From Candidatus Scalindua sp. (GTDB lineage Bacteria > Planctomycetota > Brocadiia > Brocadiales > Scalinduaceae), in contig JASMMK010000054.1 of NCBI GenBank assembly GCA_030748215.1, positions 1 through 64,000 of the forward strand: DNA of 64,000 nt, written 5' to 3'. Below the pieces are notes generated by a model. It had not been told where the DNA came from and ran no database searches. It worked only from the letters and a program-made list of their open reading frames with translations. The position numbers were made by a program, and so were the translations under genes. This document shows positions 56,867-64,000 of this stretch, piece by piece; the first letter of the stretch is position 1; each line of letters starts with the position of its first letter.

Positions 56867-56918
56867 CTAGTGGAAAGGCGAGGCTTTTATCAAATCCAAT
56901 TTCATGGAGGTTAAAGTT

Positions 56919-58583
56919 ATGCGAGAATGTTTAATGGCGTTTATGTTAGTCGTTGCTTTCATGGCTGGTAGTATACAGGCAATAGCAGAGGAAGCAACAG
57001 AGGAAGTAAAAGTGGAGTCTGAGGTTGCATCTGAGACGGAGATTGTCCTTACCCCTGAAGAGTTCGAAAAATGCAGGGTGATTTACTTCGACCGTTGCGC
57101 TGGCTGTCATGGAGTTCTGAGGAAAGGAGCTACCGGACCGGATCTGACTCCAGGCAAGACGAAAGCCAAGGGGACAAAAAAGCTCAGAGAATTTATATGG
57201 TTTGGAACCGGTGGAGGCATGCCTGGCTGGGGAAAAATGGGTACTATCACCGCAAAAGATACAGACCTGTTGGTAAAGTACATTCAGAACGATCCTCCTG
57301 TTCCTCCTCAATGGGATATGAAGAACGTTAAAGCCAGTTGGAAATTGTTGGTTCCGCCCGAAGAACGTCCCACTAAGCCGGAGCACGATCGTGACGTGGA
57401 TAATATGTTTGCTGTGGTTCTGCGCGATGCCGGTCAGATAGCGATTATAGACGGTGACACGAAAGAAGTTGTAAGTACAGTTGATTCTGGTTATGCAGTA
57501 CACATCACCAGGATGTCAATGTCAGGAAGGTATGTGTATTCCATAGGCAGGGATGGCAAGTGTACAGTGATAGACCTCTGGATGGCAAAGCCTGATACCG
57601 TGGCAGAGATCAGATGCTCTCTTGATGCGCGATCCGTTGATGTTAGCAAGTTCAAAGGTTTCGAAGACAAGTACGCCGTAGTAGGCGGCTACTGGCCGCC
57701 TCAGTTTGTGATACTTGACGGCGCGACACTTGAGCCTATTAAAATCGTTAGTACTCTGAGCTACACTTATGATACGGAAGAGTTCCATCCGGAGCCTCGT
57801 GTAGCAAGTATTGTAGCTTCGCACTTCGCACCCGAATGGGTGTTGAACATTAAGGAAACAGGGCAGGTATGGCTCGTGGATTATACTGACCCAAATAGCC
57901 CTGGAATTAAAATGATTGAGGCCGAACGCTTTCTGCATGACGGAGGCTGGGATTCAACCAAGCGCTACTTCCTCGTGGCAGCGAATGCAAGGAACAAGAT
58001 AGCGGTCATAGATGCCAAGGAAAAGAAACTTGTTGCCCTTATTGATACCGGTGGCATTAAACCGCATCCCGGAAGAGGGGCAAACTGGATTGATCCGGAG
58101 TTCGGTCCGGTCTGGGCTACTGGGCACATTGGCGATAGTGTGGTGTCAGTGATAGGAACTGATCCGGTAAACCATCCGGAGCATGCCTGGAAAGTGGTCA
58201 GGAAAATAAATTCGCTTAGTTCCGGCAACCTGTTTATTAAGACCCATCCGAATAGTAAATGGGTTTGGCTTGACACTCCCCTTAGCAAGAAAGCGAAATA
58301 TAGGACAACTGTTGCTGTCTATGACAAGGCAAATATGGCAGCCGGGATATTCAAAGAGTTGAAAGTCGCTGATTATGGTAAGGCTGTACACATGGAGTAC
58401 AATAAAGCAGGAGACGAAGTTTGGATAAGTATCTGGGGTAACCTGGGCGATGCCGAAAAGGGCCAGGCAGGTGAAATAGTAGTTTTCGATGACAAGACCC
58501 TTACAGAGAAAGCAAGGATAAAAGGCCTTCTCACGCCTACGGGTAAGTTCAATGTGTACAACACAGTGCATGACTTGTATTAA
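56919..58583 (+). CDS. nirS: Cytochrome cd1 nitrite reductase NirS
   Basis: 554 residues from the ATG at 56919, placed eight bases after GGAGG; an ATG at 56904 overlaps that site. A signal peptide (LMAFMLVVAFMAGSIQAIA) exports it. The c-heme domain has RCAGCHGVLRKGATGPDLTP (Cys 60, 63, His 64). The eight-bladed d1 propeller shows YAVHITRM (His 195, d1 ligand), FLHDGGWDS (His 339) and PHPGRGAN (His 382), the two active-site His that NirF lacks or alters, so this is true NirS. It ends LTPTGKFNVYNT. It reduces nitrite to NO in the periplasm. Confidence 0.97.
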   Translation: MRECLMAFMLVVAFMAGSIQAIAEEATEEVKVESEVASETEIVLTPEEFEKCRVIYFDRCAGCHGVLRKGATGPDLTPGKTKAKGTKKLREFIWFGTGGGMPGWGKMGTITAKDTDLLVKYIQNDPPVPPQWDMKNVKASWKLLVPPEERPTKPEHDRDVDNMFAVVLRDAGQIAIIDGDTKEVVSTVDSGYAVHITRMSMSGRYVYSIGRDGKCTVIDLWMAKPDTVAEIRCSLDARSVDVSKFKGFEDKYAVVGGYWPPQFVILDGATLEPIKIVSTLSYTYDTEEFHPEPRVASIVASHFAPEWVLNIKETGQVWLVDYTDPNSPGIKMIEAERFLHDGGWDSTKRYFLVAANARNKIAVIDAKEKKLVALIDTGGIKPHPGRGANWIDPEFGPVWATGHIGDSVVSVIGTDPVNHPEHAWKVVRKINSLSSGNLFIKTHPNSKWVWLDTPLSKKAKYRTTVAVYDKANMAAGIFKELKVADYGKAVHMEYNKAGDEVWISIWGNLGDAEKGQAGEIVVFDDKTLTEKARIKGLLTPTGKFNVYNTVHDLY

Positions 58584-58691: not shown

Positions 58692-59903
58692 ATGATAAAT
58701 TGCACAAAACTTTTACAGAGCACAGAAACGCTGAATGAGATAAAAAGGTACTCAGCAATCAAAAAGGAGACGCCAAAATGGATGCTTCGCTTCTCTAAGG
58801 CAACTTCTCCTATGGTGGTTTGGAATGTAACCAGAAAGTGCAATCTGAGCTGTGCCCACTGCTATATTAACGCGGTAGGACCGGAAGAAGCAGAGTCTGA
58901 AGAGGATATGGGTGATCTGACGACCAGAGAGGCGATGGATATGATCGATGATCTGGTGGCGATAAAAACGCCCATGCTGGTTTTCTCAGGCGGTGAGCCG
59001 TTGCTGCGAGAAGATATATATGAGCTTAATGTGTATGCCATGAAGCGCGGGCTCAGGACCATACTGTCGACCAACAGTACCCTTATAACCAGGGAAACGG
59101 CAAAAAAAATCAAGGAGGCCGGTTTCGCCTATGTAGGTGTCAGCCTTGATGGTACCGAAGAAGTTCACGATAGCTTCCGTGGGGCCAAAGGGGCCTTTGA
59201 GAAGTCGATTCAGGGGCTGAGGTATCTCATGGAGGCGGGGGTTAGGACAGGTGTGAGGTTTGCTATTACAAATCAAAACTACGATGAGCTGCCCAAGGTC
59301 CTGGAACTAACCAGGCGGGAGAAAATTCCAAGGTTCTCACTTTTTCAACTCGTATACGGTGGCAGAGGAAAGGAGATTATCGACTGGGATATCTTCAACG
59401 ATCAGCGAAGAGAGGTGATGGATTATGTAATAGAGGAGGCCAGAGTGAGCAACGGTATGAATATAGTTACGGCCGATAACTATGCCGATGGTATTTACCT
59501 TCTGCAAGACGTTGCAGAACACGACCCGGAGCGTGCTGCTGAGGTGGAAAAACTACTTGCCATGCAGAGTGGTTGTCCTGCAGGGGACTGTCTTGCGAAC
59601 GTGGACAATCGAGGTGACGTGCATCTCTGTCCTTATTGGCAGAGCCGGACACTAGGTAATATTCGGGAGAAGAAGTTAAGCGGTATCTGGTTTGACGAGG
59701 ACAACGACATCCTAGTCAAAATGAGGGACAAAACACGCTATCTTAAGGATAAATGCGGGAGATGCAAGCTTAGTCACCTATGCATGGGATGCAGGGTAAG
59801 GGCAGAGGTTGCTTGTGGCGATCCTTTTGGAGAAGACCCGGCATGTTATCTGACAGAGGAGGAAATTAGCGGAGCAAAGGTTCGGTTACATGATAGAGGT
59901 TAG
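58692..59903 (+). CDS. NirJ-like radical SAM/SPASM protein 1
   Basis: 403 residues. Cluster motif CNLSCAHC (Cys 50, 54, 57), then LVFSGGEPLLREDIYEL, YVGVSLDGTEEVHDSFRG and the heme-synthesis-type VYGGRGKE. The C-terminal clusters read CPAGDCLANVD, HLCPYW, CGRCKLSHLCMGCRVRAE and DPACYLTEEE. The last pieces are typical of NirJ/AhbC/AhbD enzymes acting on siroheme-derived tetrapyrroles. Its position after nirS supports heme d1 synthesis. It overlaps the second copy by 14 bases. Confidence 0.88.
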   Translation: MINCTKLLQSTETLNEIKRYSAIKKETPKWMLRFSKATSPMVVWNVTRKCNLSCAHCYINAVGPEEAESEEDMGDLTTREAMDMIDDLVAIKTPMLVFSGGEPLLREDIYELNVYAMKRGLRTILSTNSTLITRETAKKIKEAGFAYVGVSLDGTEEVHDSFRGAKGAFEKSIQGLRYLMEAGVRTGVRFAITNQNYDELPKVLELTRREKIPRFSLFQLVYGGRGKEIIDWDIFNDQRREVMDYVIEEARVSNGMNIVTADNYADGIYLLQDVAEHDPERAAEVEKLLAMQSGCPAGDCLANVDNRGDVHLCPYWQSRTLGNIREKKLSGIWFDEDNDILVKMRDKTRYLKDKCGRCKLSHLCMGCRVRAEVACGDPFGEDPACYLTEEEISGAKVRLHDRG

Positions 59904-61053
59904 CAGGATACTGGTATCGGAGAAATTTGAAAACAAAGCCCTTCGCCATAAGCGCAGTGGAGGCTCTGCGCCGGTTGTGGTATGGTGCACAACTAAGAGG
60001 TGCAACCTGGACTGCATGCACTGCTATTCCGGTGGGAATACTGCTTCTGATGGTGAACTCTCGACCGATGAAGCAAAAAAAATGCTTGATGAACTTAAGG
60101 ACTGTGGCTCTCCATTTATGATACTCTCTGGTGGTGAGCCTTTTTTACGGACGGATGTTTTCGAGCTGGGGCGCTATGCCAGGGAGATAGGTTTAATGGT
60201 CATCGTCTCTTCCAACGGTACTACAGTCACTCCTGAGATAGCGGCAAAGGCCGCAGATGCCGGCTTCGGATACGTTGGTGTCAGCCTGGATGGCCTGGCC
60301 GAGACGAACAACTATTTCAGGGGCAGTGGAGATGCTTATAGCAATGCACTTCAGGGAATGCGGAACCTACGTGATGCCGGGATAAAGACAGGTCTGCGGT
60401 TTACTATGACCAGGCACAACTGTCATGAACTTTCAGGGATTATGGATCTCCTGATCAAGGAAGGTTTTCATCGTCTCTGCGTTTATCATCTTGAATATGC
60501 TGGTCGTGGGAAGGAACTTATGGATAACGACTTATCTCCAGATGAGCGGCGGAAAGCCGTGGATAGTCTGTTCAAAAAAACCGTTGAGATAAACCGTCAC
60601 AATCACGATCTTGAAGTCCTCACCGTTGGAAACTACGCTGATGCCGCCTACATCTACATGAAAGTATTGAAGGAAAACCCGGAAAAAGCTGAGGCAGCAT
60701 ACGAACACTTTCTTCGTAACGGCGGTGAAGGCTGCGGTGAAAAGCTTGCTTACATAGACGAAGTGGGCAATGTTTACGCCAGTCAACACCTGAAGACTAA
60801 ACTGGGTAACATCAGGGAGAGAAGCTTTGATGATATCTGGAATGGTGATAATGAATATCTGTGGGAACTCAGGAATAGGGAAGGGTTGCTCCGCGGGAAG
60901 TGTGCTAAATGCAGGTTTCTGGAAATTTGCAGGGGTGGTTCAAGGGCCAGAGCCCTAGCGGTTTATGATGACTTTGGTGCTCCTGACCCGAGCTGCTACT
61001 TAACCGAAGAGGAAATTCTAAAACCAATGCATGAGGAGGTACGGGATGATTAA
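59890..61053 (+). CDS. nirJ: NirJ-like radical SAM/SPASM protein 2 (closest to NirJ)
   Basis: 387 residues. CNLDCMHCYSGG (Cys 38, 42, 45), then MILSGGEPFLRTDVFELG, YVGVSLDGLAETNNYFRG and YHLEYAGRGKELMDNDL. Unlike copies 1 and 3 it lacks the CPAG and HLCPYW motifs and instead has VYASQHLKTKLGNIRE, similar to the region in proteobacterial NirJ as I remember it. It keeps CAKCRFLEICRGGSRARAL and DPSCYLTEEE. NirJ replaces two propionates of didecarboxysiroheme by oxo groups. Of the three this is the best candidate for true NirJ. Confidence 0.85.
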   Translation: MIEVSRILVSEKFENKALRHKRSGGSAPVVVWCTTKRCNLDCMHCYSGGNTASDGELSTDEAKKMLDELKDCGSPFMILSGGEPFLRTDVFELGRYAREIGLMVIVSSNGTTVTPEIAAKAADAGFGYVGVSLDGLAETNNYFRGSGDAYSNALQGMRNLRDAGIKTGLRFTMTRHNCHELSGIMDLLIKEGFHRLCVYHLEYAGRGKELMDNDLSPDERRKAVDSLFKKTVEINRHNHDLEVLTVGNYADAAYIYMKVLKENPEKAEAAYEHFLRNGGEGCGEKLAYIDEVGNVYASQHLKTKLGNIRERSFDDIWNGDNEYLWELRNREGLLRGKCAKCRFLEICRGGSRARALAVYDDFGAPDPSCYLTEEEILKPMHEEVRDD

Positions 61054-62197
61054 TTTCAGCCGGCTGCTCAAGGTAAGGGAGACGGCCAGGGATGTTAAAA
61101 AGCACCACAACAAGAGGGCTGATGAGGTGCCAAAACATCTCATCAGATATGCGAATGTCAAAGCCCCCATGGTGATATGGAATATCACCAGAAAGTGCAA
61201 TTTCTCATGTGATATGTGCCACCTCGGCTCTGCTCTTGAGGCGGATAGTGATGAGTTGACTACGCAGGAAGCCTTAGAGTTTATTGACCATATGGCATCA
61301 ATTAAGGTTCCTATGATCTCTGTCTACGGAGGAGAGCCCTTAACCAGGGATGACTTCTTCACACTTGCAGGCCACGCCCACAATAGTGGACTTAGGATTA
61401 TTCTTTCCAGTAACGCCGCCCTTATAACAGAGAAAACCGCCAGGGAAATTGCAGAGTCCGGTATCTCATATGTGGGAATTGATATGGACGGGTTTTCTCA
61501 GATAAGTGGACGCATGGATGTTATTGCAGGGCTGGAAAAAGCTAAGCCTGCTATGGAGTACCTCAAGAATGCAGGAGTGGGATGTGGTGTGCGGATTACG
61601 ATAGGAGACTTCAACCTGTCTCAGATGTCGCCCATTATCAAGGCTATCGAGAATACTGGACTTAAAAGATTTGCGGTTTGTCAGCACATAGACGGCAGTG
61701 ACTGGAAGGCCGTAAAGAAAGAGAGACGGAAAATCATTGACTATCTCATTGATTATGCGGTGGAGAACCCCGAGATGGAGGTTGTTACCGAACAATTATA
61801 TGATGACGGCGTTTACCTTCTGCAACGTGTTGCAGAGAGTGATCCGGGACTTGCTTCCGAGATGGAGAAGCTGCTTGCAAGACAGGGTGGTTGTCCGGCA
61901 GGGGACAGAATTGTCAACGTGGACTACCTGGGCAATGTGCACCTATGCCCCTACTGGCAGGATCGGACAATTGGCAATATCAGGGAACAGAAGCTCAGTG
62001 ATATATGTTTTGACGAGGAGAACGAGATCCTCGCAAAGATGAAGGATAAAACTCAGTATCTCAAGGGCAAGTGCGGGAGGTGTGTGCATAAACACCTTTG
62101 CAGGGGATGTGGGGCCAGGGCAGAGGAAATGTGCGGCGATCTCTTCGGGGCGGATCCAGCTTGCTATCTGACCGAGGAGGAAGTAGCAGCGGTATGA
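61046..62197 (+). CDS. NirJ-like radical SAM/SPASM protein 3
   Basis: 383 residues from the ATG at 61046, which has GAGGAGGT six bases upstream and overlaps the copy-2 stop. It is close to copy 1: CNFSCDMCHLG (Cys 51, 55, 58; the usual Tyr after the third Cys is His), ISVYGGEPLTRDDF, YVGIDMDGFSQISG, then CPAGDRIVNVD, HLCPYWQDRTIGNIREQKLS and CGRCVHKHLCRGCGARAEE. Shared C-terminal motifs make copies 1 and 3 a pair distinct from copy 2. Its own step is unknown. Confidence 0.87.
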   Translation: MINFSRLLKVRETARDVKKHHNKRADEVPKHLIRYANVKAPMVIWNITRKCNFSCDMCHLGSALEADSDELTTQEALEFIDHMASIKVPMISVYGGEPLTRDDFFTLAGHAHNSGLRIILSSNAALITEKTAREIAESGISYVGIDMDGFSQISGRMDVIAGLEKAKPAMEYLKNAGVGCGVRITIGDFNLSQMSPIIKAIENTGLKRFAVCQHIDGSDWKAVKKERRKIIDYLIDYAVENPEMEVVTEQLYDDGVYLLQRVAESDPGLASEMEKLLARQGGCPAGDRIVNVDYLGNVHLCPYWQDRTIGNIREQKLSDICFDEENEILAKMKDKTQYLKGKCGRCVHKHLCRGCGARAEEMCGDLFGADPACYLTEEEVAAV

Positions 62198-62217: not shown

Positions 62218-62697
62218 TTATCCTGAATCTGTAAAGTCTAATTTTGTTTCTGCGTTATTGTTAAAACTGTCATGGCATGCGTCACACGATCTTACCAGGT
62301 TGCCAAATTCAAGATTAGCTTTATCGGTGTTTTGATTATTACTGTACGAAATCAACTTATTTAAAGCGTTGTTAAAATTGCTGCTTAATTCCATAAACTC
62401 GTTTGAAACATCATTGTTCTCAATCATATATAATTCAACACAATTAAAGCCTATGTTCTCTTTGAGCTCTTCTGCCCACATAGCCATTTGAGCCCAGTCA
62501 CTGTTCTCCACCGTCCTTGCCAGTCTTCTCATAGCCGTGGACGCTTTCTTCATGGCACCTGCCAGACTGTCATGATCTGATGTAGGTGCCTCTACATCCT
62601 CAACCCTTTCTATCTTTACCTCCTCAGATTTCTTGCAGGAAGCAGTGACTATGGATATTCCGATGAATATGGCAAAAATTATGAGTGAATATTTCAT
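62218..62697 (-). CDS. Mono-heme cytochrome c lipoprotein (c'/c556-like)
   Basis: 159 residues. A lipoprotein signal (FIGISIVTASC) is followed by an all-helical domain with one heme site near the C-terminus, SCDACHDSF. A C-terminal CxxCH in a helical bundle is the class II (c'/c556) arrangement. The start overlaps the HEAT gene stop (ATGA). Convergent with the nirJ-like genes, 20 bases apart. It could pass electrons to NirS. Confidence 0.82.
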   Translation of the reverse strand: MKYSLIIFAIFIGISIVTASCKKSEEVKIERVEDVEAPTSDHDSLAGAMKKASTAMRRLARTVENSDWAQMAMWAEELKENIGFNCVELYMIENNDVSNEFMELSSNFNNALNKLISYSNNQNTDKANLEFGNLVRSCDACHDSFNNNAETKLDFTDSG

Positions 62698-63699: not shown

Positions 63700-64000
63700 T
63701 TATTCAACTGTAATAGTCCCTATCATCCCCACATCAACATGAGAATCACAGTAATAAGGAAATGTGCCGGTAGAGTGAAAAGTGTAGGTAAAGCTCCCCG
63801 AAGCCATTTTACCTGTTTTCCAGAAGCCATCAGGTACACCCTCTCTTCCGTCTTCCGTTTCAATTACTGGTCCACTTGCTACTTCGTGAGGTTTGCTGCC
63901 GGTCACGACCCATTTCACACTATCACCTTGCTTAATCGTTAAGGAAGATGGAACAAACTCATAATCACCCGTCATCTCAACAATATGTGTTGTTGGCTCG
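63700..64000 (-). CDS. Cupredoxin (plastocyanin/azurin-like), N-terminus beyond right edge
   Basis: The frame stays open to the window edge (EPTTHIVEMTGDYEFVPSSL), so the ATG at 63975 is probably internal. YEFVPSSLTIKQGDSVKWV begins the beta barrel; the type 1 copper ligands are His in KPHEVA, then Cys and His in YYCDSH and Met in VGM. Such small copper proteins carry periplasmic electrons, and one next to nirS could be its donor. It is probably the first gene of the cupredoxin-HEAT-cytochrome group. Confidence 0.88.
   Translation of the reverse strand, partial: EPTTHIVEMTGDYEFVPSSLTIKQGDSVKWVVTGSKPHEVASGPVIETEDGREGVPDGFWKTGKMASGSFTYTFHSTGTFPYYCDSHVDVGMIGTITVE

Follow-up and report, generated by a model that had tools for sequence, protein, structure and literature searches.

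The 64,000-nucleotide stretch of DNA analyzed here (the window; positions 1 to 64,000 of contig JASMMK010000054.1, assembly GCA_030748215.1, Candidatus Scalindua sp.) carries nirS, which encodes cytochrome cd1 nitrite reductase, followed by three genes for NirJ-like radical S-adenosylmethionine (SAM) enzymes, designated J1, J2, and J3, or together the triad. The window belongs to contig C54 of the source genome, which is 2.4 Mb in 66 contigs and 95% complete. J1 starts 108 bases behind nirS, J1 and J2 overlap by 14 bases, and J2 and J3 overlap by 23 bases (Table 1). The open reading frames are exactly those of a preliminary description of this DNA, in which three tandem, overlapping NirJ-like genes had been placed behind nirS.

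The same arrangement was reported for S. profunda (cluster scal02098) by van de Vossenberg et al. in 2013, with nirS clustered with three nirJ-like genes, clear homologues of nirN and nirF absent, nirD and nirH expressed, and NirS highly expressed (PMC3655542). That report comprised two sentences, and no later treatment of the three-nirJ arrangement was found in the literature searched. The arrangement has therefore been known since 2013; the tree, the motifs, the distribution, and a proposed mechanism are added by the present analysis. Among marine anammox bacteria, Scalindua is dominant, and its heme d1 synthesis bears on a main step of marine nitrogen loss.

Table 1. Coordinates of nirS, the triad, its cluster motifs, and related features (positions without a locus prefix refer to the window)
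Feature	Location	Strand	Remarks
nirS, cytochrome cd1 nitrite reductase	56904..58583	+	c-heme motif CAGCH; Cytochrom_D1 451 bits; solved NirS E 1e-189; d1-pocket residues conserved
J1, radical SAM enzyme with 7-Cys SPASM domain	58692..59903	+	403 aa
J1 radical SAM cluster motif CX3CX2C (C50, C54, C57)	58839..58862	+	invariant in alignment A1
J1 SPASM cysteines C295, C313, C355, C358, C364, C367, C385	59574..59846	+	
J2, radical SAM enzyme with 4-Cys NirJ/AhbC-type auxiliary cluster motif	59890..61053	+	387 aa
J2 radical SAM cluster motif (C38, C42, C45)	60001..60024	+	invariant in alignment A3
J2 auxiliary cluster motif CX2CX5CX21C (C338, C341, C347, C369)	60901..60996	+	
J3, divergent radical SAM enzyme with 7-Cys SPASM domain	61031..62197	+	388 aa
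J3 radical SAM cluster motif (C56, C60, C63)	61196..61219	+	invariant in alignment A2
J3 SPASM cysteines C288, C306, C348, C351, C357, C360, C378	61892..62164	+	invariant in alignment A2
ABC exporter-type genes behind triads	L062:11045-13036, L061:4433-6391, L065:3515-5521, L066:11488-13283, L068:2312-4303, L100:11262-13271		
nirS-only archaeal genomes	L214 (G087), L215 (G088), L216 (G086), L217 (G083), L211 (G082)		

NirS and the cluster motifs of the triad

The gene upstream of the triad encodes a true NirS, because its nearly full-length alignment to solved cd1 enzymes (E 1e-189) far outscores the matches to NirN (8e-46) and NirF (8e-9). The NirS residues that contact heme d1 or the substrate are Arg156, His182, Arg198, His327, His369, and Arg372 in P. 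aeruginosa numbering (PMC7278500), and all six are kept in the window NirS (LRDAG, GYAVH, IGRD, FLHD, and PHPGRG; the assignment of numbers to motifs is our own).

J1, J2, and J3 each matched the Pfam domains Radical_SAM and SPASM and, at E 1e-73 to 1e-118, the NCBIfam group of NirJ1, AhbC, and NirJ, which is far beyond chance. With the NirJ model TIGR04051 (cut-off 515), the scores of J1, J2, and J3 were 356, 334, and 247 bits, although this is a weak test as a clear NirJ, that of genome G036, reached only 386. The scores were also below the cut-offs of AhbC, the didecarboxysiroheme deacetylase (TIGR04546, cut-off 650; 385, 380, and 250 bits), of AhbD, the heme b synthase (TIGR04545, cut-off 500; 252, 232, and 166 bits), and of NirJ1/NirJ2 (TIGR04054/TIGR04055, cut-offs 650/500; 392/212, 394/219, and 260/140 bits). 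AhbC was, together with NirJ1, the closest curated group, and its N-terminal start is of the same kind (MI..S/T-K/R-L). In comparison with five orthologues, the ratio of nonsynonymous to synonymous substitution rates was 0.04–0.21, which indicates purifying selection on J1, J2, and J3 alike.

The cluster motifs were compared using a test pattern for the full SPASM domain (CX9-15GX4C - CX2CX5CX2-3C - C). J1 and J3 have the full motif (CX12GX4C - CX2CX5CX2C - C) in every locus, including that of an archaeal metagenome-assembled genome (MAG), and J2 has only CX2CX5CX21C, the truncated four-cysteine kind, which falls outside the test pattern. The CPAGD and HLCPYW motifs had been described as common to copies 1 and 3 and lacking in copy 2; this proved right, and the cysteines within these motifs are kept in every Brocadiales locus examined. 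The full pattern occurs in M. barkeri AhbD, an enzyme with two auxiliary [4Fe-4S] clusters, as well as in further enzymes that catalyze oxidative reactions (PMC10452713). The four-cysteine pattern is that of NirJ and AhbC, with one auxiliary cluster, a proposed electron donor (PMC12505453). J1 and J3 thus share with AhbD the full motif, with two predicted auxiliary clusters, but they have no counterpart of the eighth cysteine, C223 of M. barkeri AhbD; therefore, their AuxI cluster would have three cysteine ligands.

The triad shares with canonical NirJ the radical SAM core, the linkage to NirS, and the arginine of VGxRF, which is kept in all three proteins and which we equate with Arg169 of NirJ by our own mapping. 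The NirJ-type pattern (CX3CX2C plus CX2CX5CX20-21C) is exact in J2, which also keeps the histidine of SHL/YHL. Unlike NirJ, J1 and J3 have three more SPASM cysteines, so that this pattern is embedded in the fuller motif, and glutamine at the histidine position. J3 has moreover lost the FRG..GAF and LVYxGRG stretches that are conserved in NirJ and AhbC. An AlphaFold2 model of J3 (predicted local distance difference test score, pLDDT, 84.6) nevertheless shows the radical SAM/SPASM fold in full, with PqqE, SuiB, and anSME as the closest structures; an earlier run with 12 close orthologues (pLDDT 50) was set aside.

Phylogeny and distribution of the triad

The preliminary description had proposed a tree of the three proteins with NirJ, NirJ1/NirJ2, AhbC, and AhbD, and such a tree was computed from 84 rows under LG+C20. 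J1 and J3 group together in an old clade (100/100). J2 forms a separate clade, with a haloarchaeal TIGR04347 protein as its sister (99/94), although a long-branch effect is possible. Canonical NirJ has its own clade (100/100), AhbC another, and AhbD, NirJ2, and similar proteins lie at the other end of the tree; none of J1, J2, and J3 falls inside the NirJ, AhbC, or AhbD clades. In particular, the grouping of copies 1 and 3 with AhbC or AhbD, which would have undone the idea of a distinct set, did not occur. Forcing a single triad clade was 38 log units worse (approximately unbiased (AU) test, p 0.0005), and forcing J2 together with NirJ was 9 log units worse (p 0.023). A lineage-specific NirJ expansion was rejected by the tree and the AU test, and the active-site and cluster residues also differ among the three proteins.

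The nearest outgroup of J1 and J3 was formed by archaeal proteins in the AhbC position (L202:7506-8714, L204:4469-5659), which adjoin siroheme decarboxylase-like genes and have a full seven-cysteine SPASM motif. The haloarchaeal sister of J2 (L189:4001-5206) differs from it in organisms and context, with no nirS nearby. It is annotated as a "pseudo-SAM" protein with a partner among the ribosomally synthesized and post-translationally modified peptides (RiPPs); its CX3CX2C is intact, and the annotation looks doubtful.

The class was surveyed in 75 genomes; nearly all genomes used were drafts or MAGs. Orthologues of J3 (at least 78% identity) were present in 13 of them, always in the order J1-J2-J3 directly behind nirS, and J1 of named relatives, mostly Candidatus Scalindua and including S. 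rubra and S. arabica, was 85–94% identical to that of the window, which places the source among the anammox bacteria of the genus group Scalindua. Full NirS was found in 16 of the 75, namely, the 13 triad genomes and G034, G036, and G057, and no class genome without nirS had a triad (Fisher p 4e-12 for co-occurrence, a value inflated by relatedness). One Scalindua genome, G009, carries two complete nirS-J1-J2-J3 loci (L064, L065).

In the other three genomes, NirS, a cytochrome c, NirN, NirJ, and NirF are encoded in a row without a triad, in the gene order of the Kuenenia cluster kuste4136-4140 (nirS-nirC-nirN-nirJ-nirF; PMC6423088). Neither NirF nor NirN was found in any triad genome, and no Cytochrom_D1 protein besides NirS was found in the 13 at an E 1e-15 threshold. 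As NirF of the relatives was detected at E 1e-32 to 1e-35, an ordinary NirF would be seen in the triad genomes. Among genomes with nirS, the triad and NirF/NirN are mutually exclusive (Fisher p 0.0018, likewise inflated by relatedness). Two triad genomes (G054, G059) and a canonical one (G057) share one genus, which is a natural swap within that genus. Canonical-type NirS groups with proteobacterial NirS, and triad-type NirS forms its own clade.

Beyond the class, no further triads were seen in a 392-genome sample of the phylum, and matches in Elusimicrobia and Phycisphaerae in a genome scan proved to be AhbC and AhbD pairs. A contig of the "Desulfobulbaceae" MAG CSMAG_637 (L126) has J1-J2-J3-ABC, with J1 and J2 92–93% identical to the window, and is probably a misbinned Scalindua contig.

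A cassette was also found in the archaeal MAG G075 (JALUUU01, "archaeon isolate 128-326"), where NirS-J1 runs off one contig and J2-J3-cytochrome b lies on another; the two presumably join into one cassette, and contamination of the MAG may be its source. Its J1 and J2 are 70–72% and 67% identical to those of the window, and its J3 was recognized by profile. G075 has its own ahbA-ahbB-ahbC operon and AhbD, and it probably belongs to Hydrothermarchaeota, the only archaeal phylum for which a nirS survey reports NirS (PMC10999283). Its NirS is very divergent, lying far outside all others compared, with proline in place of Arg372 (PHPGPG). That two NirS proteins so unlike each other are both followed by a triad speaks for a functional link between NirS and the triad.

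A proposed variant route to heme d1

Canonical d1 genes are missing here, as had been noted for nirF and nirDLGH: NirDLGH genes are absent at the locus, in contrast to canonical NirJ loci no NirF or NirN gene adjoins the triad, and neither nirF nor nirN was found in the whole source assembly, although no search was made for NirC-type cytochromes. Besides NirS, the genome has a single Cytochrom_D1-like protein, a beta-propeller on contig C45, which is nearer to the S-layer protein 1l0q and hydrazine synthase beta and was rejected as a hidden NirF. The siroheme decarboxylase that heme d1 synthesis requires (NirDLGH or AhbAB) is supplied by an AhbA/AhbB-type pair on contig C1; there is one pair per genome, not linked to nirS and present irrespective of it. 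AhbC and AhbD are encoded on contigs C66 (737 bits, cut-off 650) and C37 (504 bits, cut-off 500). Since the genome has separate AhbA, AhbB, AhbC, and AhbD, heme b is covered by its own genes. AhbC-like genes occur in nearly all class genomes (their absence in G008 and G010 is only apparent, owing to a split at a contig end), and the triad instead tracks nirS. A further radical SAM protein, of 587 aa (L059:1221-2984, contig C17 of G000), is NirJ2/AhbD-like with a C-terminal extension and scored 330 with the NirJ2 model (cut-off 500).

In the canonical pathway, two propionates of didecarboxysiroheme (DDSH) are cleaved off as acrylate by NirJ (PMC12505453). NirF and NirC form both keto groups, the oxygen of which comes from water, a step assigned to them only in 2026, and NirN makes the ring D acrylate double bond, the last steps being periplasmic (PMC13168839). 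Because the triad genomes have DDSH-forming enzymes and no NirF, NirN, or canonical NirJ, we propose that nirS-J1-J2-J3 is a cassette making cytochrome cd1 plus its heme d1 via a variant route. The AhbA/AhbB pair, shared with heme b synthesis, would decarboxylate siroheme to DDSH. J2 would then cleave the two propionates on rings A and B, as it is NirJ/AhbC-like, with a single auxiliary cluster motif and the conserved histidine and arginine. J1 and J3 would carry out the oxidative steps, i.e., the keto groups, made by NirF/NirC in the canonical route, and the acrylate double bond, made there by NirN, because full SPASM domains suit taking electrons away, as in oxidative radical SAM enzymes.

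We give this proposal as a whole a probability of about 0.5. That the triad serves heme d1 synthesis, with heme d1 itself as the product, is considerably more secure and appears quite probable, while the division of labor among J1, J2, and J3 is an even call. A splitting of the side-chain and oxo steps by the set, as suggested in the preliminary description, remains the best idea. A lineage with NirS and three conserved radical SAM enzymes instead of NirF and NirN would represent an independent solution to the same chemistry, with a natural swap in one genus. A more tentative extension is that J1, J2, and J3 finish heme d1 in the cytoplasm, with the keto groups and acrylate made by the two full-SPASM enzymes and the product exported, perhaps by an ABC exporter-type gene product. 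The triad may accordingly bear on the question of transport, as the canonical route ends in the periplasm via an unknown transport step (PMC13168839).

Several observations weigh against the variant route. DDSH may not be a substrate of J3, which is missing stretches that NirJ and AhbC conserve, and a very divergent NirF-like propeller or NirC-like cytochrome could be encoded elsewhere. In G006, the end of nirS lies at a contig edge (L104:6409-6641) with an ABC transporter gene 89 bases on, and no triad was found, which is possibly a loss or an assembly artefact. Moreover, five archaeal MAGs of the phylum of G075 have nirS, and no NirF, NirN, or triad was found in them; in four of the five (G083, G086, G087, and G088), which were checked further, the best NirJ-family match was AhbD-like. 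NirS without recognizable d1 genes is thus not unique to the triad genomes, and these archaea either take up heme d1 or have another unknown gene set.

The strongest competing explanation is that the triad makes heme d1 but performs only the NirJ step, by splitting the propionate removals or as a complex with non-catalytic members, the keto groups and acrylate being made by unrecognized outside proteins. Canonical NirJ alone handles both propionates (PMC12505453), NirF, NirC, and NirN are periplasmic (PMC13168839), so that unrelated periplasmic proteins could substitute for them, and both the lost stretches of J3 and the nirS-only archaea, which suggest that unknown d1 genes exist, are in its favor. 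However, J1 and J3 have lost no cluster cysteine in either of two distant lineages and are strongly constrained, the additional auxiliary cluster motif that they carry is in keeping with oxidative chemistry, and the search for Cytochrom_D1 relatives gave only the C45 propeller. We therefore consider this explanation rather unlikely, though a serious one.

The cassette might instead make another tetrapyrrole for NirS, for instance one that lacks the acrylate or bears a single keto group, as there are three enzymes rather than one and neither NirF nor NirN, and the archaeal NirS has proline for Arg372. This is improbable because the window NirS keeps all checked d1-contacting arginines and histidines and aligns over its full length with solved heme d1 enzymes; the unrecognized tetrapyrrole of the preliminary description lost ground for the same reason. 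Modification of a peptide or of NirS itself (RiPP-like or protein maturation) is very improbable. Peptide maturases often have full SPASM domains, the J3 model is nearest to PqqE, SuiB, and anSME, and the annotation of the haloarchaeal J2 sister names a candidate RiPP partner. By sequence, however, J1, J2, and J3 all belong with the tetrapyrrole enzymes of the NirJ/AhbC group, with scores clearly higher than for any model of a peptide maturase, and no tetrapyrrole radical SAM enzyme of that group was among the solved structures matched, so that the fold search cannot favor peptides. Finally, that the triad consists of AhbC/AhbD duplicates making heme b by the siroheme route, also raised earlier, can hardly hold despite the relationship to AhbC and NirJ1, given the dedicated AhbC and AhbD above their cut-offs, the different distribution of AhbC-like genes, and the position of the triad proteins far below those cut-offs and outside those clades.

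Neighboring genes

In most relatives, an ABC exporter-type gene (ABC_membrane plus ABC_tran) lies directly behind the triad; it is missing in the window. Its product may be the exporter of heme d1 or of one of its precursors. Genes for cytochrome c'-like, plastocyanin-like, and Rieske/cytochrome b proteins lie near the cassette (window 62218-62697 and 63700-63975, both on the minus strand; L060:2857-4314). In the archaeal MAGs G086, G087, and G088, nirS adjoins a prenyltransferase-like gene and oxidase-like genes.

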